Source of the DNA: a virus
Virus record (IMG/VR): IMGVR_UViG_3300043470_001257
Coordinates: 1-21,378 of that record
DNA: 21,378 nucleotides
Reading direction: 5' to 3' (one strand)
Numbering within the stretch: the stretch's first letter is position 1; each line of letters opens with the position of its first letter. Below are positions 272 through 16,942 of the stretch, in pieces. The notes under the pieces are model-generated. The model did not search any database, had not been told where the DNA came from, and was given only the letters and a program-made list of their open reading frames with translations. Position numbers and translations under genes: made by a program.

Positions 272-1444
272 TTATTTTAATAATTTTTCAAAGTTAGCTG
301 TTTCCATTTTTTGGATGGCTTTTCCCAACTCAGGACCTGGTTTCAAATCAAATTTTTCCATAGCCTCTGGTCCGCTAACGCTAAGTCTATATTGTTCAAA
401 AGCGTTTAACAATTTTTCTGGTATGTTTTCTTTCTCACCAAATTCTCTAATTTGTTTATCAGAAACACCAGCAGTTTGTTGCATTTTTTTCAACAAGTAT
501 GCGGTATCAACACTCAATTTTAAGAATGAAATTAAAAACACAATCGCTTTTATTTCGTCTGCTGAGTATTTCAATTCATTTAATTTTCTTCTTAACAAAT
601 CAATTTCGTTATCTTTTAATAAACTAGCCAATTCAACAATGTAATTGTCAACTTTACCAGAGTTTCTCATGTATGATTTTTTATTCAATAACATGTTAGG
701 TAACACCCATTTGAATAAGTCATATTTATCTAACATTTCCATGTATTTTTTAAATGACTTAGCTGAGATTAATCCTTTGATAAACTCATCTCTAATACGC
801 TCACCAGAAATACCTTCAAGACTTGCATCTTTTTGTAATGCCATATCTGTTGCTGGGTCTAAATCAGAACCAAATCTACCAGCAAATCTAATCGCTCTTA
901 GAATTCTAAGCCTATCTTCACCAAATCTATCTTCTGGGGCACCAACAGTTCTCACAACACCGTTTTTAAGGTCGTCTACACCACCTACAAGGTCAACTAT
1001 TTCTTTTGTGTCTATATCATAGAACAAAGCGTTGATTGTAAGGTCACGTCTTTTTACATCACCATCTATATTTGTAAATTCAACACTGTCTGGTCTTCTA
1101 CCAGAACCAATATCATTTCGAAACGTAGCTACTTCATATTCTCCTTGGTCAGTGAATACGTTGATAACACCAAAAGCTTTACCAGTTGGTAGGGTTCTGA
1201 AACCAGCATCTTGCATCATTTCTTCTACTTTGTCAGGAACAGCATCTGTAGCTAAATCAAAATCCTTAGGTGTTTTTCCTAATAGGGCATCGCGCACAGC
1301 TCCACCAACCACATATAATTTATATCCGTTTTTGGTGAACACCTTTTGGATTTCAATTATATCTGATGGTATTTGGAAGTCAAATTTAATTCTTTCTTCC
1401 ATTGTAAGTCCTTCTCTAAGTATTTGTTTTATTTGTGTTTTCAT
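272..1444 (-). CDS. cca: CCA-adding enzyme (tRNA nucleotidyltransferase), N-terminally tagged
   Basis: This 390-residue protein should add or repair the 3' CCA of tRNAs. It shows the class II nucleotidyltransferase head: GGAVRD (47-52), catalytic DFD (61-63), RRDLTINAL (132-140) and EDRLRILRA (176-184), with a helical C-terminal body. Length is close to bacterial enzymes. The tRNAs and tmRNA in this window do not encode CCA, so the enzyme has obvious phage substrates. Residues 1-14 (MKTQIKQILREGLT) are an extension ahead of the usual start and match the L-R-E tag of three other proteins here. The start is ambiguous: a promoter box (1449-1456) lies only four bases before ATG 1444, implying a leaderless message, while Met15 (ATG at 1402) follows an AGAAGGA-like sequence. 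Two products, tagged and untagged, are possible. Confidence 0.93.
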   Translation of the reverse strand: MKTQIKQILREGLTMEERIKFDFQIPSDIIEIQKVFTKNGYKLYVVGGAVRDALLGKTPKDFDLATDAVPDKVEEMMQDAGFRTLPTGKAFGVINVFTDQGEYEVATFRNDIGSGRRPDSVEFTNIDGDVKRRDLTINALFYDIDTKEIVDLVGGVDDLKNGVVRTVGAPEDRFGEDRLRILRAIRFAGRFGSDLDPATDMALQKDASLEGISGERIRDEFIKGLISAKSFKKYMEMLDKYDLFKWVLPNMLLNKKSYMRNSGKVDNYIVELASLLKDNEIDLLRRKLNELKYSADEIKAIVFLISFLKLSVDTAYLLKKMQQTAGVSDKQIREFGEKENIPEKLLNAFEQYRLSVSGPEAMEKFDLKPGPELGKAIQKMETANFEKLLK

Positions 1445-1448
1445 TTTG

Positions 1449-1479
1449 CAAAGATACGAATTATTTTATTATAACCAAA
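1449..1479 (-). promoter_or_regulatory. Bacteroidetes-type promoter of the cca gene
   Basis: On the minus strand TTTG (1476-1479), 19 bases, then TATCTTTG (1449-1456) fit the Bacteroidetes consensus. It lies just past the stop of the upstream gene and abuts ATG 1444, so the transcript would begin at or within the first codons. Confidence 0.7.
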
Positions 1480-1481
1480 TT

Positions 1482-3416
1482 TTAATACATTTTTTTCCCT
1501 AAAAGACCTTCGCGATACATTCTAGTTTTTAAATCTCTAACCCATCTATCTCTGTATTTTAATGGTAACATTTTATAAACAACTTTAATACTTATTGATT
1601 TGTCCATCATTTCATCAAAGGTTAACTCATCCCAAATATCACCATATTTTCTTTTTAATTGATGAATATTATGGATTTGGGCTTGGATTTCTAATTTATC
1701 AGCATCGATTGGCATATTATTTTTTCCAACTTTTTTACCTTTAGCTATAAATTTATCAACAGCTCTTTTCACTTTTCTGTTATGAAATGTATCATCCAAC
1801 CAATGTGAAAATTCATGATAAATACTACCTTTTATTTTTTCTTCAGACAAATCTGATTTAAACTGTCTTACGTATTGGTCATCTAAATTATCTAACGCTT
1901 CATCTAAATTATTGTTATTCGCTTTAATAAAATCAATAGCAGCTATAGACACTGTTATACTAATCACCCTAGTGTTTGGGTTATACGTGTTACCTTTATC
2001 TTTAGCGTTAATAAAAATTCTACTAGGATTCTTTTCATTAGCTTCAACACACAATGGGTTTGATAAAATCCTAGTATCAGTAATTGTCGGATAAAACATC
2101 CCGTTTGATAATTTTCTAGTTGTTAATAATTGCTCTAAATCTTCTTTAAAAAAAGTATCATAAATCATATCTACATCATCATCTATGTTAAAGATAGCTT
2201 CAGTTATTAAACTTTCTGTAAGAATGTTTTTTATCGTATTTTTAGATTCATTTAAACCCAGTTGTAATTGATTAGAGTTTGTTTTAACCCTTTTTTGTTT
2301 TGATGGTTTTTCATCAAAATTCATTATTTTCATTGCTGTTGGTAAATCTAAAAATCTTTCAATATAAGCATTTACACCATATTCTTCTTCTTCTTCATCG
2401 TGAATATCCCTATCAGCCATAGTGTAAAGTCTTTGATAACCAGTTTCACCATAATCTGAATAATCATATCTAAGAGGTTTTGTTAATACATGCATGAAAT
2501 ATTCAGAATCAGATGGTTCTGAAAAATCAATAATGATATAACAAATATCATTGGTAGTATTTTTAAACCAATCATCCAAATTTAAAGCATCACCTTTTCT
2601 ATTATAGGTAAAACACCACAAAGAATTACAACCAATTTTTTTAATACTTTCTGGTTCAGAAACTTCAATAATCATAATATCACCCTTTTGGTAAACTACT
2701 TCTAATCCATTAGCATTTTCTTTATCGTCTTTAAGTATTTGGTTTATTTGTTCTCTAGTTAAATCAGTCCCACCTAGAAGACCTTCTTTATCATTTACAA
2801 AATCAATAACATCATCAAGTCTTGTATTGTTTTTAAAAATTTTACCTAAAATTTTATTTCTAGCGTTTTCATTTCTATTTTGTAATTGATTGATATCTGT
2901 ATCAACATATTCTAACTCATCTCTATAACGATTCATTTCATTACCATTTCTTTCTGTTTTAATATCAGATTTCATATTTCTTTTAGCAATAGATGGCCAT
3001 TCATTGAAAATATTGATTATTTTTTCACGCTGAATCAACGCTCTAATTAAATCATTTGTATCTTGAACACCATTGATGTTGAAACCTTTGATGGGGAATA
3101 CATTTTTATTGTATTCTTTTAATTGGTTGTATATTGGTCTTAATTTTTGCAAATCAGGTGTACTCATCACATCATTTTCTGGTTTTTCAGTTTCTTGATG
3201 TTCTGGGTCTAAGTGTTTCATAGCCCATTCACCAGTTCTATGATTATTGGTTAACATCGTATAGTAGATGTCAGTCATTATTTTGGTATATGGGTCACCA
3301 TTGGTGATACGTGTAATTATTTCTCTAACTCTAGGTGATAACTTCCCAGAATTGAAATAAACCTTATCAGCCAATTGTAAGTTTTCTCTAAGTAATTGTT
3401 TAATTAGATTCTTCAT
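1482..3416 (-). CDS. Putative zinc metallopeptidase, 644 aa, with N-terminal and internal L-R-E-type tags
   Basis: I start this at ATG 3416 because the protein then begins MKNLIKQLLRE|N, the tag shared with neighbours. An in-frame ATG at 3440 lies deeper in the upstream gene. The N-terminal half (to ~385) is unrecognised; residues 255-312 contain a W-C-F segment followed by a YIIIDFSEP strand, loosely like a recurrent phage domain. Residues 388-407 form a second tag-like stretch (KNTIKNILTE, then SLITE|A). The C-terminal half has HEFSH (534-538), an HExxH zinc-peptidase motif, in a helix; the third ligand is not clear. It overlaps the upstream gene by 17 bases, so translation is probably coupled. 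The layout suggests two domains split by a protease. Substrate unknown. Confidence 0.8.
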   Translation of the reverse strand: MKNLIKQLLRENLQLADKVYFNSGKLSPRVREIITRITNGDPYTKIMTDIYYTMLTNNHRTGEWAMKHLDPEHQETEKPENDVMSTPDLQKLRPIYNQLKEYNKNVFPIKGFNINGVQDTNDLIRALIQREKIINIFNEWPSIAKRNMKSDIKTERNGNEMNRYRDELEYVDTDINQLQNRNENARNKILGKIFKNNTRLDDVIDFVNDKEGLLGGTDLTREQINQILKDDKENANGLEVVYQKGDIMIIEVSEPESIKKIGCNSLWCFTYNRKGDALNLDDWFKNTTNDICYIIIDFSEPSDSEYFMHVLTKPLRYDYSDYGETGYQRLYTMADRDIHDEEEEEYGVNAYIERFLDLPTAMKIMNFDEKPSKQKRVKTNSNQLQLGLNESKNTIKNILTESLITEAIFNIDDDVDMIYDTFFKEDLEQLLTTRKLSNGMFYPTITDTRILSNPLCVEANEKNPSRIFINAKDKGNTYNPNTRVISITVSIAAIDFIKANNNNLDEALDNLDDQYVRQFKSDLSEEKIKGSIYHEFSHWLDDTFHNRKVKRAVDKFIAKGKKVGKNNMPIDADKLEIQAQIHNIHQLKRKYGDIWDELTFDEMMDKSISIKVVYKMLPLKYRDRWVRDLKTRMYREGLLGKKMY

Positions 3417-4611
3417 CTTTTTTAAAAGGGTTTGTTTCACTTATGTTATTTGCTTCGTAGTATAAATCCCAATCTAAAATAGATTCATTGGTTGTTCTAG
3501 CGTTTATTTTTTGCATTACATCTGACTGGTTATCATCTTTTGCCATAGCGTATAATTTATGAATTTTCTTTAATAACTTATCGGTTACGGTTTTAAAGTT
3601 TTTTTGTTCATAATTGAAGAACTGTTGATAATTATCAAATCGTTTTAAAGTGTCAACATAATCTTTAATTTCTTTTCTAGAAACCGAATCACCTTGTAAT
3701 AACATAGCAACAAAAGGGTCATTTAATCTAGCAGCGGCTTTGTAAGACTCAAATTTACGCTTTTGTATTAATTCATATGTAAGTTTCAATAAAAGACTAA
3801 TTAAATCATCCTCAGATGATGGTATTTTGTATCCAGCATCGTCTAATACCTTAATTATTCTATCTTTATGTTGTTTCAAATCATTTATCAACTCATCTAA
3901 AGAGAATGAATTTATCCTTTTTAGGTTTTGATACGTGTCATCAGTTTCCAAAAAATTTAAAAATTGTTTTTTGGTGATACCTACTTGTTCTATATTTGAT
4001 GCTACTTCTGTTGCTCTAACTAAATTTTCAGCATTAGTAGTAAAATATAAATCATGTATAAATTGGTCCAAAGGTGGTATGTTTGTTCTCATATCGGTAA
4101 AAACACCATATTCACTATTTCTATGTATTTTAGACACTTTCTTTTTATACATATCGTAAGCATGTTTTAACTCATGAGTTAAAGACATTGTTAATTTAAT
4201 CTTTTCTTTAACAAATTCTTCTAATACTTCTTCTACCGTTGTTGTTTTGTTTATTGCAATTTCAATGAATAGATAAACAGAGCCGTCTTTACCTACAGAA
4301 ATATTTCTAAATAATTGAACATCAAACTCGCTTTTATTTCTAAAAGCCATACCATAAACTTTAGGTAAATTGTTGTCATGACGGTTTAATACCTTAGTAT
4401 TTAATTTAAGTTTAACTTTATTAAACACAGCATCACCAACTTTATACTCACCAGTTATTTTAATTTTATTTGGAATATCAGTCATAAGCATATCTGCTGG
4501 TTGTTGGTTTAAATAATCTAAAACTTTATTATAAACTTCAACACCAACATTTGTTATATTGTCTGGCACACCTAATGCCTCTCTAAGTAATTGTTTAATC
4601 GTATCTTTCAT
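3400..4611 (-). CDS. Putative zinc metallopeptidase, 403 aa, N-terminally tagged
   Basis: The protein begins MKDTIKQLLRE|A, the tag found on four proteins in this window, then has an unrecognised N-terminal region. HELKH (146-150) is an HExxH zinc-binding and catalytic motif in a predicted helix; Glu195 or Glu202 (in NAENLVRATE) could be the third ligand, as in gluzincin-type phage peptidases, though I cannot prove it. The rest is helical and Lys/Asp-rich with no membrane segment or signal peptide. It heads a unit with the 644-residue HExxH protein, which starts inside its last codons. The pair plus the CCA enzyme look like co-expressed cargo. Substrate and activity are unknown. Confidence 0.8.
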   Translation of the reverse strand: MKDTIKQLLREALGVPDNITNVGVEVYNKVLDYLNQQPADMLMTDIPNKIKITGEYKVGDAVFNKVKLKLNTKVLNRHDNNLPKVYGMAFRNKSEFDVQLFRNISVGKDGSVYLFIEIAINKTTTVEEVLEEFVKEKIKLTMSLTHELKHAYDMYKKKVSKIHRNSEYGVFTDMRTNIPPLDQFIHDLYFTTNAENLVRATEVASNIEQVGITKKQFLNFLETDDTYQNLKRINSFSLDELINDLKQHKDRIIKVLDDAGYKIPSSEDDLISLLLKLTYELIQKRKFESYKAAARLNDPFVAMLLQGDSVSRKEIKDYVDTLKRFDNYQQFFNYEQKNFKTVTDKLLKKIHKLYAMAKDDNQSDVMQKINARTTNESILDWDLYYEANNISETNPFKKDEESN

Positions 4612-4633
4612 ACCTATAAATATTCAATAAAAT

Positions 4634-4655
4634 AAAAAAGGACCCCGCTGGGCCC
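4634..4655 (-). terminator. Rho-independent terminator after the kinase gene
   Basis: On the minus strand GGGCCC-AGCG-GGGTCC forms a 6-bp stem with one G-U pair and is followed by six T. It lies 10 bases past the kinase stop codon and closes the operon that begins at the 6662 promoter. Confidence 0.88.
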
Positions 4656-4665
4656 TAATTTATTA

Positions 4666-5163
4666 TTACTTCAAAAATTTTCCAAGTCTTAAAACTTTCT
4701 CTTTGAATTCTTCGAAAGTTCCATTGTTTTCAATGATGATATCAGCGCATGTTTTGTCAATATCAAATGATGAAGGGTCTTCCAATGGTAATCTTTCTGA
4801 TGCGTCAACCCAAATGATTATGTCAAATAATCCTTGGCGCATACACTCGTTTATTTCTTCTCTATCACGCATACCTACATAACAATCTGATTGTTCTAGG
4901 ATACCCTTAGCTAACTTGGCTCTGTCGTCTTTGTTATAATCACAAATCAATTGTTTCCATTCAGCTCTGTGGTTTACTCTATCTTCGAAACATTCTTCTG
5001 GTGTTGTATAACCATACTTGTCTTTTAAGGTGTCATACAAGAAAATATTAGCAGCAGCTTGTGATGATGATTTGAACGTAAGACCATAATTATCTCGCCA
5101 TATTTCAGCTAACGTATCTTTCGCGTGGCGAGCGTGACCTATAATAAGCATTTTTTTAAACAT
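4666..5163 (-). CDS. P-loop nucleotide kinase, probable deoxynucleoside monophosphate kinase
   Basis: At 165 residues this fits phage dNMP/adenylate kinase-like proteins. The phosphate-binding loop is GHARHAKDT (9-17), close to the GxxRxGKDT form common in phage kinases, with Ala in place of the usual Gly before Lys15. An MRDREE segment near residue 98 may be the lid or base-contact region, and IIIWVDAS near 116 is the buried strand seen in this fold. It would phosphorylate dNMPs to feed phage DNA synthesis; the specific base is not readable. Its ATG overlaps the upstream stop (TAATG), so translation is coupled. Met5 is an alternative start. A strong terminator follows. Confidence 0.78.
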   Translation of the reverse strand: MFKKMLIIGHARHAKDTLAEIWRDNYGLTFKSSSQAAANIFLYDTLKDKYGYTTPEECFEDRVNHRAEWKQLICDYNKDDRAKLAKGILEQSDCYVGMRDREEINECMRQGLFDIIIWVDASERLPLEDPSSFDIDKTCADIIIENNGTFEEFKEKVLRLGKFLK

Positions 5164-5447
5164 TATTCCTCGTCGTCTATTTCTACTATCACACTAAACT
5201 CTTCACCAGTGATTTTATCACGAACAATATCTTGTTCCATCATTTCATCCCATAATGAATAAACTTTCTCTTCATCATCTTTTTTAAACATGTTTTCCGA
5301 GTTAGATTCAATGTATTCTGTGATTTCCTCATCAGTCATACCTTCTAACTCTGGATAATCATCAACGTTGATTGTGATGTCTTCTCTAATCATGTAACTA
5401 CAATACGATTCTGTAGCACAAACTTTAATTGTCTTGTTTTCTGCCAT
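5163..5447 (-). CDS. Acidic hypothetical protein, 94 aa
   Basis: A strongly acidic protein (about a third Asp/Glu, ending VEIDDEE) with two Cys near the N-terminus and no membrane segment. I do not recognise the family. Its stop codon overlaps the start of the kinase gene, and the SPFH gene ends 55 bases upstream with no terminator between, so all are probably on one message. The tight coupling suggests it is made in proportion to the kinase, but nothing in the sequence shows that it binds it. Confidence 0.75.
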   Translation of the reverse strand: MAENKTIKVCATESYCSYMIREDITINVDDYPELEGMTDEEITEYIESNSENMFKKDDEEKVYSLWDEMMEQDIVRDKITGEEFSVIVEIDDEE

Positions 5448-5502
5448 TTGTTTTTGTTTTTAAATTAGAAGAAACTCTACCTTTCACAGTAGATTTCTTG
5501 TT

Positions 5503-6444
5503 TTAGTTTTTAAGTTGATTTAACACTGCTGTGCTACCCACAACTTGTGGTACCCTTGGTGTGTTAGGGTTGATGTCAATCCATTTTAAGTATTCAACAT
5601 ACAACGGAGTGATTTCTTGTTTTCTAATTCTCATAGCTTCTGCTTGTGCTTTAGCCGCGATAATTGTTTGTTGTGCATCACCATTAGCAATAGCCACTTT
5701 CTTTCTAGCTTCAGCTTCAGCTGTAAGAGCTTTTTGGTCCTCAGCTTGTGCTTGTTGAATCGCTCTAGTTTTAGCTATAATTGTTTCTTGTAAGGATTGT
5801 GGTGGAACAATGTTTGTTCTTAATTGTGACACGGTAAACCATTTAGATAAACGCTTGTTACATTCAGTTTTAATCGCAGCTTCAAATTGTTCACGCTCGT
5901 TAAAGATTTTATCAACCTCCCATTTATTAGCAACGTCATTAATAGCACCAACTATGGCTGTTTGTAACCAACCTTGTTCTACTGATTTAATATCCAAACG
6001 TAAATTCTGGAACATATCACCAACAGCACCAGCTTTTAATGAATAGTTAAAACTTGGGTGAATTGTCGCTGGGAAACCACCTTTGGTTATAACTTGTTGT
6101 TTTTCATATCCAATAGTTTGTTGGAAAACTGGAAACTGATAAAGTTGTTCAGTCCATGTATTGAATACTACCCAACCAGTTTTGTATTCATACTTTGATA
6201 CACCGCGTGCATCACCAGATAAGTTGACTTTGATACCTACGTTACCAGCATCGACCCTATCTAATTTGTAAGGTTGAGTAAAACCTAACGTAAGACCCAA
6301 AACTAATATTAGTATTGGTTTAATTAACCAAACACTATTAAATTCTGTTCCCCAGTTGGTTTGTTTTGTGCTCGATTCTCTTGTGGAAAGAGCGATTACT
6401 ATCGCCATTATTAGCGATAAAACAATAATAATTGTTGAAATCAT
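5503..6444 (-). CDS. SPFH/Band 7 (prohibitin-like) membrane protein
   Basis: This 313-residue protein has an N-terminal membrane segment (about 1-20), a second hydrophobic stretch (about 43-60), then an SPFH domain (about 62-225, starting with VDAGNVGIKVNLSG). A long Ala/Glu/Gln-rich coiled coil follows (about 228-280, AQAEDQKALTAEAEARKKV), and it ends in a short soluble tail. This order is that of prohibitin/HflK-type scaffolds, which assemble as rings on membranes and often control membrane proteases such as FtsH. In a phage it could shield or remodel host membrane proteolysis or lysis; that is inference. It starts 5 bases after a two-helix membrane protein gene and shares its promoter. Confidence 0.9.
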   Translation of the reverse strand: MISTIIIVLSLIMAIVIALSTRESSTKQTNWGTEFNSVWLIKPILILVLGLTLGFTQPYKLDRVDAGNVGIKVNLSGDARGVSKYEYKTGWVVFNTWTEQLYQFPVFQQTIGYEKQQVITKGGFPATIHPSFNYSLKAGAVGDMFQNLRLDIKSVEQGWLQTAIVGAINDVANKWEVDKIFNEREQFEAAIKTECNKRLSKWFTVSQLRTNIVPPQSLQETIIAKTRAIQQAQAEDQKALTAEAEARKKVAIANGDAQQTIIAAKAQAEAMRIRKQEITPLYVEYLKWIDINPNTPRVPQVVGSTAVLNQLKN

Positions 6445-6449
6445 GGTTT

Positions 6450-6644: not shown

Positions 6645-6661
6645 ATTTAAAGATTTTTTTA

Positions 6662-6693: not shown

Positions 6694-6694
6694 T

Positions 6695-6717: not shown

Positions 6718-6729
6718 TTTTTTTTTTTA

Positions 6730-7627: not shown

Positions 7628-8287
7628 TTATTTTCTACCCTTAACCCAACCTTCGTTCAGATAAGTTTCAAGGTTTTCTTTTTTTATCTTTTTGTTAGCA
7701 CCGTCTCTGGTTATCCAACACGTACCGTATTGACTATTTGTTTCACCAATACCAGTACCTTTTCTTTTTTCAGAGATTAAACGTTTAGATTCTTCAGCAT
7801 GATTTTTACCAGTCCAATCTAGATTTTTTAATTTATTCTGTCTGTATTCTTCATTTTCCCAAGCTATTTTATTAACATGAGAATTGAATCTACTTAACCA
7901 GTTTTCATCACCACCGAACTTTTCTTTTAAAACTTCGTCAGTTTTTTTTCTACCAGCTTTAACACATTTAAACATATGTTCTTCATTGATAAAACCACCA
8001 CCTTCACCACCAAGAGCCAAATTCATACATTTGGAATCTGAAATTAATTCTTTATTAACAATTTCTTTTTCTCTTTTAGCTAATTCTTCTCTATTTTCTA
8101 AAAATTCTAGAATCTCTTTTGTGTGATTTTCTTTACCGTATTTTCTAATAGAACGTCTTAATGTTTTACCACTACCTATATAACCATCTTCTAAGTTATA
8201 CGTGCTATGCATTCCGATGTACCATCGTCCTGTTATATTACACGTTGTTTTATAAATGTAGTGTATGTTTTTTTCTTTTCTTGCCAT
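7628..8287 (-). CDS. GIY-YIG homing endonuclease (free-standing, Seg-like)
   Basis: This 219-residue protein has the GIY-YIG core at the N-terminus: YIY (10-12), YIG (23-25), then GYIGSGKTLRRSIRKYGKEN (35-54), with a Glu-rich helix at about 58-80 that would hold the metal-binding Glu. The middle is basic and probably binds DNA. The C-terminus (about 188-219, CWITRDGANKKIKKENLETYLNEGWVKGRK) is a repeat-like DNA-binding tail often seen in phage endonucleases. It sits between two tRNA genes, 7 bases upstream of the Leu-shaped tRNA, the usual location for Seg-type enzymes in T4-like phages. No intron is visible around it. Confidence 0.88.
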   Translation of the reverse strand: MARKEKNIHYIYKTTCNITGRWYIGMHSTYNLEDGYIGSGKTLRRSIRKYGKENHTKEILEFLENREELAKREKEIVNKELISDSKCMNLALGGEGGGFINEEHMFKCVKAGRKKTDEVLKEKFGGDENWLSRFNSHVNKIAWENEEYRQNKLKNLDWTGKNHAEESKRLISEKRKGTGIGETNSQYGTCWITRDGANKKIKKENLETYLNEGWVKGRK

Positions 8288-10483: not shown

Positions 10484-10488
10484 TTTAT

Positions 10489-10785
10489 TTAATTTTGTAG
10501 TTTACTAATAAAAATTGGTGTGTAGTCACCCATCCAAGCTCCTTGGATATTAAAATAAAAATATTCGTAAGCCATACTAATTTGAACTTCTTCAATTGAT
10601 TGACCATCCGTAATGTCGTCAATATCAACTTCCATGTCTTTAGCAAGTATTTCGATTATTTTTTCTACGTCATAGGCAACAACAGGGCCGAGATTTATTC
10701 TCTCGGCCATGCCTATAATAGCTTCGTCAAACCCATCAACTAATAACGCTTCTGGGTTTATTTCAGCAATCTGTTCTTTGAACAT
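10489..10785 (-). CDS. Conserved small phage protein, 98 aa
   Basis: The pattern NPEALLVDGFDEAIIGMAERI, then VVAYDVEKIIEIL, then YEYFYFNIQGAWMGDYTPIF matches a family I recall as very common in tailed phages and never assigned a function. The protein is acidic and soluble, without Cys or membrane segments. Its start overlaps the stop of the 141-residue gene (TAATG), and clpP begins 5 bases after its stop, so the three are one message and probably translated in a coupled way. A role as ClpP adaptor or regulator would be a guess from position only. Confidence 0.85.
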   Translation of the reverse strand: MFKEQIAEINPEALLVDGFDEAIIGMAERINLGPVVAYDVEKIIEILAKDMEVDIDDITDGQSIEEVQISMAYEYFYFNIQGAWMGDYTPIFISKLQN

Positions 10786-11210
10786 TACTCAGCGTTTTCT
10801 GCCTCTGTTTGTTTTTCTGATTCGAATAACAAACTTATAGTTTCTCTAACTCGATTCCATTTATCGAAACCGTGTTTAGATAAAATACCACTAAACGTAA
10901 CAACGTCTGGTTTAGAAATCTCAATTCTGTCTTTTTCAGTGTTATAGTGGATTGAAGAAATAGATTCTTCAATCACCATTTCTTTATCAGCGTCATCAAG
11001 TTTATCTAAGACGTTTTCGTTGATAACGATGATGATATCATCACCAGTTCTGTATTTTAACAATTCGTTAGCTTTGTTTACCTTGTAAACGTCTTTAGCT
11101 TTATTGTTAGTTAACACAGTAATGTTAATGAAATTAGATAGACCTGCTCTTTCTATGTGTTTAGTATACAAGTCTGTTGTGTCTTCAAATGGTTCTTCGT
11201 ATCTAGCCAT
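10785..11210 (-). CDS. Hypothetical protein, 141 aa, first gene of the clpP operon
   Basis: A charged soluble protein (MARYEEPFEDTTDLYTKHIE...) with alternating strands in the middle (DDIIIVINENVLDKL) and a Lys/Glu-rich end. The segment EESISSIHYNTEKDRIEI has a Glu and a His in helix-strand context, vaguely like small phage metallopeptidase folds, but no HExxH is present. I do not assign a function. It overlaps the 98-residue gene by the TAATG junction and follows a good promoter at 11247-11278, so it leads the unit 141 aa - 98 aa - ClpP. Confidence 0.78.
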   Translation of the reverse strand: MARYEEPFEDTTDLYTKHIERAGLSNFINITVLTNNKAKDVYKVNKANELLKYRTGDDIIIVINENVLDKLDDADKEMVIEESISSIHYNTEKDRIEISKPDVVTFSGILSKHGFDKWNRVRETISLLFESEKQTEAENAE

Positions 11211-11246
11211 TGTTTTTAAAAAATTTTATATAATGTTATTGTTTTA

Positions 11247-11278
11247 CAAAAATACTAATTAATATTCTAATTTACAAA
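11247..11278 (-). promoter_or_regulatory. Promoter of the clpP operon
   Basis: TTTG (11275-11278), 20 bases, then TATTTTTG (11247-11254) on the minus strand, 37 bases before ATG 11210. The TTTG lies within the last bases of the dnaJ gene. Confidence 0.75.
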
Positions 11279-12303
11279 CTTTCCGTTTGTTTTTTTTCGT
11301 ACTCTTCTTTTAAATTGATTATAATAGCTTTTAAGCTATCATCTAGAGTTTTTGGTATATTCACATCCAAAGTAACAATTAAATCACCACGTTTGTCTGT
11401 ATTTAGCTCTCTGAGACCTTTAAACGGTATTTTAAGGTTTTGCCCAATTTGACTGTATTCTGATATTGGTATTCTAATTTTACCACCTTCTATGGTGTTT
11501 ATTTCAACTTTATCACCCAATACCAACTGATGGTATTCTAATTTAAGTTTTAATTTTAGTTCCGAACCAACTCTAGTGAATTTTTCGTGTGGTAATTCGG
11601 ATATTCGTATAATTAAATCACCTTCTCTTCCGCTTTTAACACCATGGCCTTTACCACCCATAACAAATGCCATACCATCTTGGATTCCAGTTGGTATGTC
11701 TACTTCAACTAGTTCTTGTTTTTTTACTAAACCACTACCACTACAAGTTTTACATTCGTTTTTAAAAGTTGTTCCAGTACCACTACAAACATGACAATCA
11801 TTTATGTTTTCCATAAAACCAAAAGGTGTTCTAGTGACTTGTCTAATCTGACCACTTCCATTACATGTAGAACATTCTTGTGGTTCAGAACCACCATGTC
11901 CAGAACAGTCAGTACAAGAAACATTTCTATTGTAGTTATATTTCTTTTTAACACCTGTAAAAATTTCTTCTAGTGTTAATTTTACAGTTAAGGTCATATT
12001 TTCACCCACGCGTTCTCTAGCTTGTTTTTGTCTAAAAAATTGACTGAACATATCATGGAAACCATTTTGCATATCATCATACCCACCTATATTATCATGA
12101 GAATGACCAAATCTATCGTATTTGGCTTTTTTATCTTTATCAGATAAAACTTCATAAGCTTCTGAAATTTCTTTAAATAGTGTTTCATCACCGCCCTTAT
12201 CTGGATGGTGTTCTTTTGCTAATTTTCTATAGGTTTTTTTGATTTCTTCAGCAGTAGCAGCCTTATTAAGACCTAAAACTTCATAATAATCTTTTTTGCT
12301 CAT
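11272..12303 (-). CDS. dnaJ: DnaJ (Hsp40) co-chaperone
   Basis: The 343-residue protein has a J domain (1-66) with HPD at 33-35, which stimulates DnaK ATPase. A zinc domain holds four CxxCxGxG repeats (Cys130/133, 144/147, 170/173, 184/187), followed by the C-terminal client-binding domains. The linker (67-100) has few Gly and is Gln/Asp/Phe-rich, so the usual G/F region is reduced. DnaK is not in this window, so it probably recruits host DnaK. It has its own promoter and lies just upstream of the clpP operon, grouping folding and degradation functions. Length is slightly below the ~370-380 residues of bacterial DnaJ, mostly because of the shorter linker. Confidence 0.95.
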   Translation of the reverse strand: MSKKDYYEVLGLNKAATAEEIKKTYRKLAKEHHPDKGGDETLFKEISEAYEVLSDKDKKAKYDRFGHSHDNIGGYDDMQNGFHDMFSQFFRQKQARERVGENMTLTVKLTLEEIFTGVKKKYNYNRNVSCTDCSGHGGSEPQECSTCNGSGQIRQVTRTPFGFMENINDCHVCSGTGTTFKNECKTCSGSGLVKKQELVEVDIPTGIQDGMAFVMGGKGHGVKSGREGDLIIRISELPHEKFTRVGSELKLKLKLEYHQLVLGDKVEINTIEGGKIRIPISEYSQIGQNLKIPFKGLRELNTDKRGDLIVTLDVNIPKTLDDSLKAIIINLKEEYEKKQTESL

Positions 12304-12323
12304 AGTTTGTATTTATTTTTTAG

Positions 12324-12355
12324 CAAATATACTTAAATTATATTAAAAATGCAAA
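12324..12355 (-). promoter_or_regulatory. Promoter of dnaJ
   Basis: TTTG (12352-12355), exactly 20 bases, then TATATTTG (12324-12331) on the minus strand, 20 bases before ATG 12303. Confidence 0.78.
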
Positions 12356-12358
12356 TAG

Positions 12359-13018
12359 ATGACATATAGAGTTGTATTATTGTGTAACGGCGAATATAAA
12401 AAAACAATTCATAGAGCTAGAACCCTAGAAACTATTTTTACACGTTACCATAAAATAAAAGAAGAAAATAATGTTTTGTTTCCTAAACGTTTTGTTAATA
12501 GTAATAAAATTATACCTGTAAAATACGAGATTGCTGTGACAAAACCAACTGAAGAGGGTGATACATTTAGAACCCTTAGAGATGGTTATGGTAAGTTATA
12601 CACTGAAGAACCCTTGGGTGATTGGACTATTTTAACATCTCAAGATTATGAGCTTGAAGAAACATTTATGATTTATGGTATTGGTTATAAAAACGGTGAA
12701 AGACCAACAATACGTGAAATAGTTAAAAGACTTATGCTTAACGCACATTCTAAAAAAACTGTTAAACAAATCATAGTTGTTTATAACAAATTGTTAATAT
12801 ATAATGAGGACCAATTTGATATGGTTTTATGTAAGAATTTAGAAGAAGCTCAAAGGTTACACCATACACTTGCTAAAATAGCTAAAAAACAAAAAATAAA
12901 AAGTCTTTTATTTATGGGGACAGCAACTAAGTCTAATATAGGTAGATTATATGATGTGATACATGATGAAACAGGTTGGTCTTACCCTAAAATACGAAGA
13001 CAAAGTACGTTACATTAA
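12359..13018 (+). CDS. Hypothetical protein, 219 aa, plus strand
   Basis: One of three genes I call on the plus strand. It starts MTYRVVLLCNGEYKKTIHRA and is basic. A beta-rich N-terminal half is followed by helices (VKRLMLNAHSKKTVKQIIVVYNKL...) and a very basic end (YPKIRRQSTLH). There are single Cys residues but no metal motif and no membrane segment. I do not recognise a domain. The ATG at 12348 reads into a stop after six codons, so ATG 12359 is the likely start. It diverges from dnaJ and converges on the minus-strand 62-residue gene, with a shared terminator between. Confidence 0.75.
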   Translation: MTYRVVLLCNGEYKKTIHRARTLETIFTRYHKIKEENNVLFPKRFVNSNKIIPVKYEIAVTKPTEEGDTFRTLRDGYGKLYTEEPLGDWTILTSQDYELEETFMIYGIGYKNGERPTIREIVKRLMLNAHSKKTVKQIIVVYNKLLIYNEDQFDMVLCKNLEEAQRLHHTLAKIAKKQKIKSLLFMGTATKSNIGRLYDVIHDETGWSYPKIRRQSTLH

Positions 13019-13019
13019 A

Positions 13020-13042
13020 AAACCCAGAAAATTTCTGGGTTT
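13020..13042. terminator. Bidirectional terminator between convergent genes
   Basis: AAACCCAGAAA (13020-13030), one base, TTTCTGGGTTT (13032-13042). It is flanked by an A-run and a T-rich tract and serves the plus gene ending at 13018 and the minus gene ending at 13047. Confidence 0.85.
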
Positions 13043-13046
13043 AATT

Positions 13047-13235
13047 TTATTTAAATAAGTTTTCTAATTTTGTTACCAACTCAGCTATTCTCTTATCATT
13101 TCTATCTATTTGTTGTTGAATATTATTTGGTATATTACCAACATATTCAGATTTTAATTTAGAATTTTGTCTTTGAAGTGAATCACTTTCTCTAAGACAA
13201 TTGTCATATATTATTGCTTTATCTTGATTATTCAT
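13047..13235 (-). CDS. Small coiled-coil hypothetical protein, 62 aa
   Basis: I start at ATG 13235 (MNNQDKAIIYDNCLRESDS), which overlaps the end of the 112-residue gene; the longer in-frame ORF to 13313 would lie wholly inside that gene. The C-terminal part (IQQQIDRNDKRIAELVTKLENLF) has the heptad pattern of a short coiled coil. No family is recognised. It is the last gene of a three-gene cluster before the terminator at 13020-13042. Confidence 0.65.
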   Translation of the reverse strand: MNNQDKAIIYDNCLRESDSLQRQNSKLKSEYVGNIPNNIQQQIDRNDKRIAELVTKLENLFK

Positions 13236-13566
13236 ATTTACCACAATTACAATCTCCACCGCATTCGCATGGATTATTTTCAATTTCAATATCTTCAATA
13301 TCCATATCAACACCTACTGAAAACTGTTCTTGAATCTCTTTAATCATTTGTTGTACTTTCTCCATATCTGGTTCTGAAAGCATTACTGGGTTGATACATT
13401 CTACTCGTTCCTCACCAGTAGTTGGTAAAAAGAATGCCATCATGTTAGAATTTTTTTGTTCAATCATAAGATTTACCGATTCGGCAAATGGTTGAATAAT
13501 TTGTTGGTTTTGCATCATTTCAGCGTCCAAGTAAAATACTAGGATAAGTGGGTGGTTGTTTTCCAT
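13228..13566 (-). CDS. Acidic hypothetical protein, 112 aa, with Cys-rich C-terminus
   Basis: The body contains a hydrophobic strand (LILVFYLDAE), a Met-rich middle and an acidic stretch (VDMDIEDIEIE). It ends with a compact Cys cluster, CECGGDCNCGKYE (two CxC motifs), that could bind zinc or another metal. I do not recognise the family. It starts one base after the 80-residue gene ends and overlaps the next gene, so it belongs to one message. The CxC tail recalls the CxC of the micro-peptide at 9177, but the similarity is too short to infer relation. Confidence 0.75.
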   Translation of the reverse strand: MENNHPLILVFYLDAEMMQNQQIIQPFAESVNLMIEQKNSNMMAFFLPTTGEERVECINPVMLSEPDMEKVQQMIKEIQEQFSVGVDMDIEDIEIENNPCECGGDCNCGKYE

Positions 13567-13567
13567 T

Positions 13568-13810
13568 TTAGTTTTTATTAAATAATGTTATTTCTTCTAT
13601 TGAATTAAGGATTTCTTTTGTGTTGTAATCGTAAAAATGTATTAAAATTAGTTCGTTAACAATTTCTTTTTTTTCATTATCACCAATAGCAGTTTCACAT
13701 TTTAAATTTTGGTCATCAATTTTAACATAGATTAAAAATTCACTAATATATTTACCTTTTTTATTACTACTATAATAACGGTCTACCTCTTTAATTAATA
13801 GTTTTTTCAT
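13568..13810 (-). CDS. Hypothetical protein, 80 aa
   Basis: A Lys/Ile/Asn-rich soluble protein (MKKLLIKEVDRYYSSNKKGK...) with an alternating pattern suggesting beta strands. It has one Cys, no motif and no membrane segment, and I do not recognise it. It is the first gene of a tight three-gene cluster that runs to the terminator at 13020. A degenerate promoter box (TATATTTA, 13818-13825) lies 8 bases upstream of its ATG, and the terminator of the ncRNA behind the DUF2828 gene is 53 bases upstream. Confidence 0.65.
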   Translation of the reverse strand: MKKLLIKEVDRYYSSNKKGKYISEFLIYVKIDDQNLKCETAIGDNEKKEIVNELILIHFYDYNTKEILNSIEEITLFNKN

Positions 13811-13817
13811 TTTATTT

Positions 13818-13825
13818 TAAATATA
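13818..13825 (-). promoter_or_regulatory. Weak promoter-like box before the 80-residue gene
   Basis: TATATTTA on the minus strand lies 8 bases before ATG 13810. The last base deviates from TAnnTTTG and no TTTG is found at the expected upstream distance, so this is only a candidate. Confidence 0.3.
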
Positions 13826-13862
13826 CCGAAAAATAAAAAATATGTAAATAATATAAAACAAA

Positions 13863-13888
13863 AAAACCCTCCATATATGGAAGGTTTT
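13863..13888 (-). terminator. Terminator after the ncRNA region downstream of the Ro60-like gene
   Basis: On the minus strand AAAACCTTCCAT and ATGGAGGGTTTT pair (one G-U) around a 2-base centre and are followed by a run of T. It marks the 3' end of the transcript from the 15583 promoter. Confidence 0.85.
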
Positions 13889-14088
13889 ATTTTAATTGTC
13901 TCAAGATGTTGGGGCTTTTACTTCTAAACCCTGTTTGAAGTTTCCCAACATTAAAAATAAATTTAGAGGTTGCTGGGAAGACCTACATTAACTAAGTACT
14001 GAATCATAAATATTTGTAGATAGCTTGCGGTATACATCTTTCAATGACAATCTTGATAAAAATGAGGCAGTTTCCCACCTCACCCTTA
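13889..14088 (-). ncRNA. Structured non-coding RNA downstream of the Ro60-like gene (candidate Y RNA)
   Basis: About 200 bases without a gene hold nested pairing on the minus strand. TGTTGGG/CCCAACA (13907-13913 with 13944-13950) encloses ACTTC/GAAGT (13920-13924 with 13937-13941). TGAGG/CCTCA (14063-14082) caps a TGGGAAACTG loop, and AGGT/ACCT surrounds CTTCCCAGCA. A long-range TCAAGAT/ATCTTGA helix (13901-13907 with 14050-14056) could close the domain. TGGGAAACT occurs twice. Position next to a Ro60-like gene suggests a Y RNA partner, but no known Y RNA sequence is recognised. Confidence 0.5.
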
Positions 14089-15543
14089 TTAAACAGTTAC
14101 GCTAGCGTAACGCTCTGAGCCGATAACTGACATCATCATTGCTAATGGTGTCATTTCTTTACCAGCCAACAAGTTGGTAAGTAAAGCTGGGCTGAACCCA
14201 GATACAAGCGCAGTTCCATTTTTATCAAAGTGAACTGGTTTGTTGTTATCACCTCTTGATTGAATGTTCCAGAAAACGATTTTTGGCACTTCGTACCCAG
14301 CATCGTTATACATTTTTTCAATCATTTGTTGAGCAGTTGGGTTCCAAGAACCTTGACCACCCCAACGACTACCTACAGCAGAGTCAAACTCCATATCTGA
14401 TAGGATTAACATCATTGTTGGCATTTCCTCAGGTGCAACATTAGAAGCAACAGCTTTATTTAAAATCAACTTGAAAGCTGCTTCTAAATTAGTACTACCA
14501 CCCCATTTTGAACGTGCCATTTGACGGTATCTTTCTGACAAACTACCTTTCACTATTTCTAATGATGGTGATTCGTGGAAAGTAATAAACGCGTCTTTGA
14601 ATGGACCAACGTTTCTTTCTGAAATGTATAACCCCAATGAGATTGATACATCCATACAAGTAACATTAGCGTTACTACCCGCTGGTGTTTCCATAGAACC
14701 AGATACGTCAACCAATGGCAACACTCTTTCGTTGTTGTTTTCCATGTAGTTTGGTAACGCGTTCCATTGAACATCAGCACCTTTGGTATTACCTTGTTTA
14801 AGGTTTTTGATGATGTCGTATGGGTATACGGCACCAGCATTGATTTTGGTTTCACCTTTTTCAACACTTGTTAAGTATTCTTGAAAACGAGCTAAGTCGT
14901 TTTTAGAGAACGCTTTCATGTAATCACTCATAGCTTTTGAAGGCAATTTAGAGTAATCAATTAAAGAGAATTCTCTAGAACACATTAATTGCTCAACTGT
15001 GTTAGAATTTTCAACTAACATTTTACGGTAGTCTTTTGGTGACATACCCATATATTTTCTTAAAGTGGTTGCCCATCTTTTTTTCTCACGATTACCAACA
15101 TTTGGACGTGGAGCCCATTTTGCAGCTAAACCATTTTTACTAGTCAAACCTTCAGCATATAAACCTAACGCTTGTGTTTCTAAAGGTGTTCCAATCATCA
15201 TAAATAAATCATCCCAACGACCAAACTCACTAATCAAATGTAAGTTCTTAGCAAGAACCTCTGTACGGTTTTTAGCTAAATATTCAATTATGTCTCTGAA
15301 AATTTGTCTCTCACCAGCACCACCACGAACATCACGAGCCCAAAAAAGCAAACGCATAGCGTTTAACGGGTTCTCACCAAAAGCTTTGGTAAACACATTG
15401 ATAAGTCTAGTTTTATCTTGACCTCTCATTGCACCAATTTGAAAAAATAAATCAACACATAAATTCAAAGAACTTGAATTTGTAGTCATTCCGTTTTCAG
15501 TTAAAGAATTGTTAGTTTGCATAGCTTTTAATAAAGTGCTCAT
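14089..15543 (-). CDS. Ro60-like protein: DUF2828/TROVE-type helical domain plus von Willebrand A domain
   Basis: The 484-residue protein has an N-terminal helical-repeat region (about 25-260) with ARDVRGGAGERQIF (69-82), GRWDDLF (108-114), KWAPRPNV and a segment ending KINAGAVYPYDIIKNL, a pattern I associate with DUF2828. A vWA domain follows with MIDAS DVSGS (279-283) and SDMEFD near 382. This architecture matches Ro60/Rsr proteins, ring-shaped RNA-binding proteins that hold Y RNAs and misfolded RNAs and help exonucleases in stress. The RNA-binding role here is inferred from the fold. It has a strong promoter of its own and is followed by a 200-base structured non-coding region and a terminator, so the transcript carries protein and RNA together. 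Confidence 0.88.
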   Translation of the reverse strand: MSTLLKAMQTNNSLTENGMTTNSSSLNLCVDLFFQIGAMRGQDKTRLINVFTKAFGENPLNAMRLLFWARDVRGGAGERQIFRDIIEYLAKNRTEVLAKNLHLISEFGRWDDLFMMIGTPLETQALGLYAEGLTSKNGLAAKWAPRPNVGNREKKRWATTLRKYMGMSPKDYRKMLVENSNTVEQLMCSREFSLIDYSKLPSKAMSDYMKAFSKNDLARFQEYLTSVEKGETKINAGAVYPYDIIKNLKQGNTKGADVQWNALPNYMENNNERVLPLVDVSGSMETPAGSNANVTCMDVSISLGLYISERNVGPFKDAFITFHESPSLEIVKGSLSERYRQMARSKWGGSTNLEAAFKLILNKAVASNVAPEEMPTMMLILSDMEFDSAVGSRWGGQGSWNPTAQQMIEKMYNDAGYEVPKIVFWNIQSRGDNNKPVHFDKNGTALVSGFSPALLTNLLAGKEMTPLAMMMSVIGSERYASVTV

Positions 15544-15582
15544 AATATTTGTTTTTAAAGTTTATTATTTATTTCAGTGATG

Positions 15583-15614
15583 CAAAGATACGAAGTTTTT
15601 TAGTCCGTGTCAAA
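15583..15614 (-). promoter_or_regulatory. Promoter of the Ro60-like gene
   Basis: TTTG (15611-15614), exactly 20 bases, then TATCTTTG (15583-15590) on the minus strand, 39 bases before ATG 15543. The TTTGACA and TATCTTTGCA context is almost the same as in the tRNA-unit promoter. Confidence 0.8.
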
Positions 15615-15666
15615 TTTTTTTGCAACTTTTTTTAAAATATTTTTTTGTTTGTTGATTTTCAGTGAT

Positions 15667-16266
15667 TTAGGATACAAAGTTTTTTATATATTGTGTCCTA
15701 TGATACCTACATGAGCCGTATTGTTTTATAGCGGCTATGTGTCCAGCACTTAAATAACCCTTATTACCACTCCATTCGTATTGTGGGTGTAGTTTGTGTA
15801 TTTTACCCATGTATTCATCACGTCTAACTTTAGCTACTATAGCAGCTGCTGCTATACATGTGTATGTATCGTCACCCTTAGGTACTGTTGTTACTGGCGT
15901 ATCTGAGTATTTTTCCCATACGGTGCCATCCACAAGTATGTGTTCTGGTGTTTTGGTTAGTTTATCTAAACATAGGTGCATTGCTTTGAATGTTGCTGGG
16001 TTGATACCTATTTCGTTGATATCAATGGCTGAGACAGCTTCGCATACAACATCAATCGCATTATCCATAATTAATTTGTATGCGTCTTTGCGTTGTTTTT
16101 CGGTAAGTTGTTTGCTATCTCTTATTAGTTCTGATTTAAAACCCTTAGGCATTATCACAGCTGCTGTTACAACTGGCCCAGCGCCAGCTCCACGACCAAC
16201 CTCGTCTAATCCGACTACATAATCGTAATCACCAAAGTCTTCAAGTATTTTCTTTGTCTTTGCCAT
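15667..16266 (-). CDS. rnhB: Ribonuclease HII
   Basis: At 199 residues this is a full-length RNase HII, which cuts RNA in RNA-DNA hybrids and at single ribonucleotides in DNA. GLDEVGRG (19-26) supplies Asp21 and Glu22, LVDG has Asp113, and AAAAIVAKVRRDEYM supplies Asp150; these are the four metal ligands of the family. HPQYEWSGNKGY (160-171) matches the conserved YxxxxNKGY region. The loop after the first motif is GAGAG rather than the usual GPLxG. It would remove replication primers. It follows two small genes and has a plausible promoter 14 bases before its start. Confidence 0.95.
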   Translation of the reverse strand: MAKTKKILEDFGDYDYVVGLDEVGRGAGAGPVVTAAVIMPKGFKSELIRDSKQLTEKQRKDAYKLIMDNAIDVVCEAVSAIDINEIGINPATFKAMHLCLDKLTKTPEHILVDGTVWEKYSDTPVTTVPKGDDTYTCIAAAAIVAKVRRDEYMGKIHKLHPQYEWSGNKGYLSAGHIAAIKQYGSCRYHRTQYIKNFVS

Positions 16267-16279
16267 TAATTATTTTTGG

Positions 16280-16287
16280 CAAATATA
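16280..16287 (-). promoter_or_regulatory. Promoter-like -7 box before rnhB
   Basis: TATATTTG on the minus strand matches TAnnTTTG, 13 bases before ATG 16266. At the expected upstream distance only TTAC is found, so the second element is poor. Confidence 0.5.
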
Positions 16288-16297
16288 CTACTTTTTT

Positions 16298-16531
16298 TTA
16301 TTCTTCGTAATTTTTTTTAACAAATTTTATTAAAATACCACTAATTTCAACTTCAAATTCATCAACTGGTTCAAAATTGGTATTAACACCTTGTGTTTTT
16401 TGTAGTAATTCTAAGTTCATCGACAAGTGGGCTTTTGGATGTAATTGGTAGGTTAGCACCAGACCATTTTTTTCTATTTTCTCATTTTCGAATATTTCGG
16501 AAACTGTTTCAATTAATTTATCAAAGTTCAT
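16298..16531 (-). CDS. Hypothetical protein, 77 aa
   Basis: A small soluble protein (MNFDKLIETVSEIFENEKIEK...) with helix, strand and helix character and a Glu/Lys-rich end. No Cys, membrane segment or known motif is visible. Its start lies one base after the stop of the upstream 71-residue gene, so they are probably translated together, and the rnhB promoter box lies just upstream (in transcription, downstream) of its stop. I do not assign a function. Confidence 0.65.
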   Translation of the reverse strand: MNFDKLIETVSEIFENEKIEKNGLVLTYQLHPKAHLSMNLELLQKTQGVNTNFEPVDEFEVEISGILIKFVKKNYEE

Positions 16532-16532
16532 A

Positions 16533-16748
16533 TTAAAATTTAGTAAACACTTTTTTTATTGCTGATATTATTTTTGATGTGAAGCTTTTTTTAATCACTT
16601 TAGGTTTTGGGTTTTTTTTAATCTCATCACCAAGGCCGTTTTTAACTTCGTTTATAAATTGTGTTTTTTTAAGTGCTGTTTTATATTTTTCAACCAACAC
16701 ATCTTTATCAGCCAACGACTGTTCTCTACTTATTATTTTATCGTCCAT
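16533..16748 (-). CDS. Small basic protein, 71 aa, with cationic amphipathic C-terminus
   Basis: The N-terminal half is a charged helix (SREQSLADKDVLVEKYKTALKK), the middle is Lys/Pro-rich (KKNPKPKVIKK), and the end FTSKIISAIKKVFTKF forms an amphipathic helix with Lys on one face and Ile/Phe/Val on the other. Such a tail could contact membranes or nucleic acid. No family is recognised. It is followed one base later by the 77-residue gene and preceded by the tagged zinc-ribbon gene, all on the same strand. Confidence 0.65.
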   Translation of the reverse strand: MDDKIISREQSLADKDVLVEKYKTALKKTQFINEVKNGLGDEIKKNPKPKVIKKSFTSKIISAIKKVFTKF

Positions 16749-16768
16749 ATTTTTTTTTATTAAATATA

Positions 16769-16942
16769 CTAGTTATTTTTGTTTTTGTCAATATAATTTG
16801 ATTCATTATCAAACCCACATTTATGACAAACATACAAATCTTCTTTTGAAGATTCAGATTCTTTCCAAGACCAACCACATTTTTTACATTTTATGATTCT
16901 ATCTATGGTTTCTCTAAGTAATTTTTTTATAAAATTCTTCAT
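16769..16942 (-). CDS. Small zinc-ribbon protein, 57 aa, N-terminally tagged
   Basis: The protein begins MKNFIKKLLRE|T, the same tag as the CCA enzyme and the two HExxH proteins. Residues 19-43 contain CKKCGWSWKE and, after a short acidic loop, YVCHKCGFDN, giving a four-Cys zinc ribbon of a type I recall in many phage proteins. It ends in a Lys/Asn-rich tail with a TAG stop, the only TAG in the window. If the tag is removed, a ~46-residue zinc ribbon remains. It could bind nucleic acid or protein; the partner is unknown. The start at 16942 is the one that includes the tag and follows an A-rich leader. Confidence 0.82.
   Translation of the reverse strand: MKNFIKKLLRETIDRIIKCKKCGWSWKESESSKEDLYVCHKCGFDNESNYIDKNKNN

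Follow-up and report, generated by a model that had tools for sequence, protein, structure and literature searches.

Four otherwise unrelated proteins encoded in a 21,378-nucleotide virus sequence (IMG/VR record IMGVR_UViG_3300043470_001257, positions 1 to 21,378; this whole stretch is called the window below) begin with the same kind of 11-residue peptide, MKxxIK(K/Q)(I/L)LRE, and all four genes lie on the minus strand. Comparison with related contigs indicates that this N-terminal tag is very probably a capsid-targeting propeptide of the kind known from phage T4, borne by exchangeable injected proteins in a lineage of large T4-type phages. The tagged proteins would presumably be packaged into the head, cleaved after LRE, ejected and functional in the host. 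Judging from the sequences, the basic, amphipathic N-terminal part of the tag (MKxxIKxx) would bring unrelated proteins into the prohead core; the gp21-like S77 protease of the lineage would cut after L-x-E and release the cargo inside the head, and the cargo would leave with the DNA and act in the host before phage gene expression. The tag would have been gained or lost on CCA-adding enzymes (tRNA nucleotidyltransferases), on PNK-type tRNA-repair kinases, and on HExxH, ADP-ribosyltransferase-like (ART-like), NUDIX, acetyltransferase and kinase-like proteins, and could be replaced by a second tag type ending in the same kind of site.

Tagged proteins of the window

The original prediction had described four unlike proteins with a single N-terminal tag, and the four tags were indeed located where predicted, in front of unrelated cargoes (Table 1). 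The naming of the first cargo as a CCA-adding enzyme was borne out by its Pfam and PHROG matches, and the PolyA_pol head domain with GGAVRD and the catalytic region is present. Two further cargoes carry the HExxH motifs ascribed to them: HEFSH from residue 534 of the protein at 1482-3416 (taken from the ATG at 3416; the longest open reading frame, ORF, begins 24 nucleotides further upstream at a GTG) and HELKH from residue 146 of the protein at 3400-4611. Both are assigned by motif only, with no Pfam match above cut-off in the search of the window proteins. Their AlphaFold models were poor (mean predicted local distance difference test score, pLDDT, of 59.0 for 1482-3416 and 58.5 for 3400-4611), and these low-confidence models gave no PDB match at E ≤ 0.001 with Foldseek and no Z of 5 or more with VIA-align (best 4.8). 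Regarding the zinc ribbon proposed for the fourth protein, the CxxC pattern was seen by eye, while assignment to a family found no support, every Pfam match staying below the curated cut-offs.

Recurrence of the tag in related phages

Over nearly its full length, the window matches a 306-kb contig of a T4-type phage, G002, with 91.4 to 99.8% identity. A strict core of the tag, I[KR]x[ILV]L[RK]E, was counted in the first 25 residues of ORFs, with shuffled N-termini as the control. In G002 the core was N-terminal in 13 of 392 ORFs and occurred twice elsewhere, with 0.03 expected as the shuffle mean. The corresponding N-terminal counts in other related contigs were 7 of 509 ORFs (G004), 12 of 355 (G003) and 3 of 633 (G013), each of these contigs having a single internal occurrence and a shuffle mean not above 0.04. 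The whole-genome search proposed with the original prediction thus revealed a tag that recurs at N-termini across G002. Seventeen tagged G002 genes curated with looser patterns and two more, starting MKEDFKPIIKALLRES and MKDFIKNRLRES, make a set of 19 that is scattered along the contig; G003 has a run of many consecutive tagged genes around 238-250 kb. The strict core was found in none of the 86 ORFs of the first 50 kb of T4, a piece without the ip genes, and in none of the 208 ORFs of 142 kb of a Flavobacterium isolate.

Scanning of IMG/VR with the DNA pattern ATGAARNNNNNNATHAARMARYTNYTNAGRGAR yielded at least 132 tag instances in at least 119 stretches. Among the matches listed, 126 instances lay in closed frames (125 of these frames with 45 amino acids or more; median 174.5) and six ran off the end. 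These matches comprised at least 107 distinct tagged proteins, which fell into at least 44 BLASTP clusters after trimming of the first 14 residues; together with 17 G002 genes, 117 proteins gave at least 52 clusters. The same pattern was found in eight stretches of the cellular collection genome_contigs, where six frames end before 40 codons are exceeded and the remaining two, of 324 and 463 amino acids, resembled ordinary cellular proteins by eye, neither with a start like a separate tag; the contrast between the two collections is one of counts and not a rate. Few of the cargoes in alignment A1 (54 proteins hand-picked from 99 instances, duplicates removed) matched Pfam at E ≤ 0.001, and those that did belonged to ten families with at most four members each (ART-PolyVal 4, NUDIX 2, GNAT 2, protein kinase 1, others weak). 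A short N-terminal peptide (about 10-19 residues) common to otherwise unrelated proteins, one of the marks of a T4-type capsid-targeting sequence (CTS), is what was found. No description of this tag was found in the open-licence PMC literature.

The chance that all tagged genes derive from one ancestral gene, with only the N-terminus still recognisable, is practically nil. Some clusters may be distant relatives, as several ART-like cargoes were split by BLASTP, but the cargoes belong to unrelated Pfam families (nucleotidyltransferase, P-loop kinase plus CPD, NUDIX, GNAT and ART), and for the CCA enzyme and PNK a common ancestor is refuted by the existence of untagged orthologues.

Two side observations concern the cargoes. 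The commonest among the matches listed was a small protein of about 133 amino acids (L172, L174, L187, L200, L201, L206, L211, L213, L223 and L231), with HELTH in the first member shown. Four tagged proteins, none with a Pfam family, have a region that by eye holds a W-C or similar Cys motif (TWCIT, SWCVA, LWCFT and GHCGT): those at 14715-16301, 18439-20619 and 240341-242683 in G002, and that at 1482-3416 in the window.

Conservation of the peptide and of its end

The four window tags share the codons CTT AGA GA(A/G), as would be expected if the common start were a translated DNA or RNA element such as a translation start, a promoter or a recombination site. The codons were compared in relatives of the CCA enzyme and PNK found by domain and not by tag (63 distinct rows, some of which are not tags). 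There, Leu before R-E is encoded by TTA, CTT, TTG, CTA or CTG, Arg by AGA, AGG or CGT, and Glu by GAA or GAG. Because the tag codons vary synonymously in relatives, the peptide is the conserved entity. This codon variety led us to reject the nucleic acid element, to which we give a very slight chance; the elements upstream of the tagged genes also differ from one another.

The peptide ends in a conserved manner. In the 63 rows, P1 is Glu in 48 and P3 is Leu or Ile in 58, and the L/I-x-E end is present in all four window tags and in 16 of the 17 curated G002 tags. Directly behind the tag stands N, G, S or A in 38 of 46 cluster representatives. Furthermore, a second [LI]xE motif lies within nine residues behind the tag in 21 of 48 representatives (drawn from 90 of the 119 IMG/VR stretches), as compared with 77 of 763 background windows (p about 2e-9).

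Exchange, gain and loss of tags

Relatives of the window protein 3400-4611 begin with MKIIITESQLKFINE/ALGVP (L005 and L006) and MKNILITENQLKFISE/ALGVP (L007), where the window has MKDTIKQLLRE/ALGVP (the slash denotes the candidate cut). E and ALGVP are invariant across these four aligned rows, and such an invariant junction behind different tags would be expected of a cleavage site whose upstream propeptide is exchangeable. A second tag type, with the start MKxIITExQ and the longer form MKxIITExQ(Y/F)xxLxE, was found by pattern on 14 of 347 G003 ORFs; an example is G003 255468-258772 (loci L103, L102 and L104), and one of the cargoes is a lysozyme-LysM protein. This second tag type also stands on the CCA enzyme in L337 and L338. 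As a separate observation, three proteins of Flavobacterium phage immuto (NC_055915), at 1803, 117631 and 118632 (L148 and L127), start with M..NF(D/N)L(K/R)xFL(V/T)EN(K/R)LT, perhaps a capsid-targeting tag of its own.

Untagged orthologues of the CCA enzyme (in G007, G008, G005 and G013) have their first residue opposite position 15 or 16 of the tagged form, Met15 is still present in the CCA proteins of G002 and the window, and the G004 orthologue has LKK in place of LRE. For PNK, the G002, G004 and G007 proteins bear the tag and those of G008 and G013 do not. In a tree of 66 of the 80 CCA loci (4 interrupted and 10 longer or distant proteins left out), 31 rows are tagged, 6 have a degenerate tag, 3 another extension and 26 none, so that at least 9 changes between extension and none are required. 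The PNK tree, with 56 of 72 loci (16 interrupted, cut or distant ones left out), has 40 tagged, 4 degenerate and 12 untagged rows and requires at least 8 changes. Tag states were assigned by hand and the bootstrap of the CCA tree had not settled; the well-supported branches alone force 4 (CCA) and 3 (PNK) changes, with gain and loss indistinguishable. The tag does behave as the portable module that had been envisaged, since orthologues occur with and without it and the same cargo follows another tag at the same junction.

In some loci the frame is interrupted, at or near the P-loop in PNK (L380, L397, L403, L404, L424, L425, L429 and L432-L436) and inside the head domain in the CCA enzyme (L352, L355, L356 and L358). 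These interruptions are perhaps introns or inteins.

Head genes and upstream elements

The 21 kb of the window stop short of the head genes. In the near-identical G002, a gp21-type Peptidase_S77 gene (53671-54183, E 7.5e-26) is followed by an acidic gp22-like gene and then by the gp23 capsid gene (E 5.3e-63). The prohead protease that was to be looked for is thus at hand in G002. Of 15 other related records, mainly fragments, 5 have it too (6 of 16 in all). S77 and gp23 occur together in G002, G003, G004, G011, G012 and G013. S77 was detected in 11 of 18 large contigs that bear the tag; gp23, either largely covered or in neighbouring pieces, is present in exactly these 11. The conserved N-terminal piece of the capsid protein ends in a putative maturation site, LLTE followed by A, S or G in four contigs, LINE followed by A in G003 and IVSE followed by A in NC_055915, as placed from alignment and position; the gp22-like protein has a putative site LLTE/A in four contigs, placed by alignment.

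The window gene at 19959-21374 served as a marker of the lineage. It was found in 8 of the 18 large contigs, and head genes or the marker in 17 of them; the contig G031 has no S77, only two weak gp23 pieces and no marker. The marker protein is acidic with a variable C-terminal part and has relatives in 22 IMG/VR loci; it had no match in Pfam, in PHROG or, by tblastn of the phages collection, in phage isolates.

Two of the tagged window genes are preceded by the late-promoter-like ATATTTATA (Table 1). Its putative promoter counterpart in G002, ATATTTAT, occurs within 50 nucleotides upstream of 58 of 384 genes (8.1 expected from shuffling), among them gp21, a terminase-like gene (named by eye) and the GH19 endolysin gene of the window, and it precedes 9 of the 17 curated tagged genes. 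Upstream of the CCA gene stands TATCTTTG, which fits TAnnTTTG, a pattern that we take to be the Bacteroidetes -7 element. Together with the Flavobacterium relative NC_055915, elements of this kind hint at a host among the Bacteroidota. In many rows of CCA and PNK relatives, the corresponding stretch before the Met reads YLC or YIC. Given these differences in upstream elements, most tagged genes look late and the two tRNA enzymes perhaps early.

Points against a propeptide

Several observations weigh against a T4-type propeptide. Arg occupies P2 in 46 of the 63 rows, which the bare L/I-x-E rule does not demand, although Lys, Gly, Ser or Cys can also stand there in otherwise clear tags. The curated G002 tag at 288916 ends in V-R-E. 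The canonical LxE is missing in 10 of 84 extended CCA and PNK rows (CCA: L304, L308, L330, L333, L335 and L336; PNK: L400, L407, L408 and L431), L333 and L335 having an IxE a few residues further on. The ipII and ipIII proteins of T4 start with MKTYQEFIAE/A, which can be aligned with the tag only at M-K and at the final hydrophobic-x-E. The CCA and PNK genes are without the late element and have TAnnTTTG just before the start instead. Finally, S77 was not detected in 7 of the 18 large tag-bearing contigs; six of these seven carry the window marker gene, so that for most of them the absence fits fragments of the lineage.

An uncleaved localisation or docking peptide, directed to a membrane, to the replication compartment or to a host or phage partner, would account for an Arg conserved beyond the need of a cleavage site and for rows that lost LxE yet retain the rest of the tag, and both structural models predict, at low confidence, a short basic amphipathic N-terminal helix. 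We regard it as improbable. The E/ALGVP junction is kept where the tag has another sequence, extra L/I-x-E motifs accumulate right behind the tag, S77 and gp23 co-occur where a tag-bearing contig extends to the head genes, and the late element is common to tagged genes and gp21, all of which argue for the capsid-targeting propeptide.

tRNA enzymes

The tagged G002 gene at 213762-214700 encodes a PNK-type kinase (AAA_33, 2e-9) with a tRNA-ligase phosphodiesterase domain (3.4e-6); the protein had no match in a PDB sequence search. Near it lies an RNA ligase gene (RNA_lig_T4_1) whose product starts with MLKIQKFIKE and was not counted as tagged. Should the ligase stay outside the head, it would be doubtful that all the enzymes needed for repair are present from the start of infection.

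Out of 38 predicted tRNA genes in G002, 4 end in CCA and 34 are without an encoded CCA (tails read by eye), which implies that the CCA enzyme also has a maturation task in the cell. On this enzyme the tag could even be incidental, the protein being made early to mature the phage's own tRNAs and packaged little if at all. Besides the tRNA tails, this would agree with the TAnnTTTG element in place of a late one, with the loss of the cleavable E in the G004 orthologue, with the 26 of 66 tree rows without extension, and with Met15, which could restart an untagged form. On the other hand, a tag that includes LxE has been retained in 31 of the 66 rows, its codons vary synonymously, it was gained or lost more than once, the functionally allied PNK presents the same pattern, and early tRNA maturation and packaging are not mutually exclusive. 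An incidental tag on the CCA enzyme thus appears unlikely, with an appreciable chance nonetheless. As read from these sequences, the case for packaging is weakest for the CCA enzyme, in view of the LKK of G004, the different promoter-like element and the plain cellular role.

A fused double cargo

The window protein at 1482-3416 consists of two parts that occur separately in relatives. The N-terminal part stands alone in G004/L183 (408 amino acids in G004); in L226 and L252, the C-terminal HExxH part is a separate protein that bears a tag itself. The linker between them contains KNTIKNILTESLITEA (Table 1), which resembles the tag minus its Met. The protein may therefore be a polyprotein that the prohead protease could split.

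A broader reading, to which we give an even chance, is that of a modular system of effector delivery. Dozens of unrelated cargoes would be involved: the CCA enzyme and PNK/phosphodiesterase as a tRNA-repair set loaded in advance, and also ADP-ribosyltransferases, acetyltransferases and HExxH proteins. With at least two propeptide types and some fused cargoes split by the protease, such a system would counter tRNA cleavage and further early host defences before phage gene expression.

Coordinates and neighbouring genes

Coordinates of the tagged genes, the tags and the associated elements are given in Table 1. Elsewhere in the window, the gene at 14089-15543 encodes a homologue of a KVP40-like phage RNA-binding protein (47-48% identity in the best matches, 673 records matched; Pfam DUF7788/DUF2828), presumably a TROVE-like protein. 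The gene at 7628-8287 has, by eye, the look of a GIY-YIG homing endonuclease.

Table 1. Tagged genes, tags and associated sequence elements of the window
Feature	Position	Strand	Remarks
Tag MKTQIKQILRE of the CCA enzyme	1412..1444	-	Candidate cut after E11; untagged orthologues start at its residue 15 or 16
CCA-adding enzyme (tRNA nucleotidyltransferase), tagged	272..1444	-	Pfam PolyA_pol 2.2e-37; PHROG 2244 9.1e-61
TATCTTTG, fits TAnnTTTG	1449..1456	-	4 nucleotides upstream of the CCA start codon; same kind precedes the tagged kinase gene in G002
Tag MKNLIKQLLRE of the two-part protein	3384..3416	-	Read from sequence
Two-part cargo, N-terminal part and C-terminal HExxH part	1482..3416	-	Each part occurs alone in relatives
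Internal tag remnant KNTIKNILTESLITEA in the linker between the two parts	2196..2243 (residues 392-407)	-	Two LxE/IxE motifs; within residues 367-408, pLDDT under 50
Tag MKDTIKQLLRE of the HExxH protein	4579..4611	-	Read from sequence
HExxH protein, cargo ALGVP immediately behind the tag	3400..4611	-	E/ALGVP kept in L005 and L007 behind a different tag
ATATTTATA, late-promoter-like	4615..4623	-	3 nucleotides upstream of the start codon of 3400-4611
Tag MKNFIKKLLRE of the zinc-ribbon protein	16910..16942	-	Read from sequence
Zinc-ribbon protein, 57 amino acids, tagged	16769..16942	-	Tagged orthologues in G004 and G007; other N-terminus in G008
ATATTTATA, late-promoter-like	16955..16963	-	12 nucleotides upstream of the start codon of 16769-16942

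Comparison with known systems

Capsid targeting as such is already known from T4; what is new is the tag family, the lineage, the number and kinds of cargo, the interchangeable second tag and the fused cargo. No report of packaging, cutting or ejection of the tagged proteins in these phages was found in the open-licence PMC literature. Should the proposal be true, a peptide readable in the sequence would predict which of the many nameless proteins encoded by uncultured phages accompany the DNA into the host, metagenomes would supply lists of candidate injected effectors and anti-defence proteins (at least 44 cargo clusters), and the carriage of tRNA-repair enzymes in phage virions would become testable.

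Known systems are described here after the cited passages of each paper. In T4, gp21 cuts after L/I-x-E, and the residues for targeting and for processing have been mapped in IPIII (PMC9026906). Foreign proteins are brought into the T4 head by the CTS (PMC9026906, PMC3012670), whose well-known cargoes are just three small internal proteins and Alt (PMC9026906), and the internal proteins vary between phages (PMC9026906, PMC12373910). The tag resembles the CTS of IPI, IPII, IPIII and Alt in being a short N-terminal peptide, a putative propeptide here, that starts with MK, stands on unrelated accessory proteins, ends in hydrophobic-x-E and occurs together with a gp21-type protease and a gp23-type capsid. 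In addition, Alt is an ADP-ribosyltransferase, and ART-type cargoes are also present among the tagged proteins. It differs from the T4 system in its sequence (MKxxIKxxLRE as against MKTYQEFIAE), in having far more kinds of cargo and at least two tag types in the lineage, in the presence of tRNA-repair enzymes as cargo, and in one case of two cargoes fused, with a remnant of the tag between them.

The T4 proteins Ip1-Ip3 are signal-bearing, exchangeable and injected, and act against Type IV restriction enzymes (PMC12373910), whereas the cargoes here include predicted tRNA repair and modification enzymes. In SPN3US and phiKZ, cleavage by the prohead protease follows x-x-E, processing affects several of the ejected proteins, and the diverged gp53 and gp54 have identical N-termini (PMC5694885); redundant propeptide sites have been described for phiKZ (PMC9026906). 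The motif in those phages, as far as these passages go, is A-x-E or S/A-x-E and the propeptides often exceed 100 residues, in contrast with L-x-E and about 11 residues here. Lastly, the PNK, RNA ligase and tRNA nucleotidyltransferase of jumbo phages have been discussed as an answer to host tRNA cleavage (PMC7824862). Unlike RNA repair as portrayed in the cited part of that paper, the CCA enzyme and PNK of the present lineage bear a capsid-type tag, the neighbouring RNA ligase not being counted as tagged.

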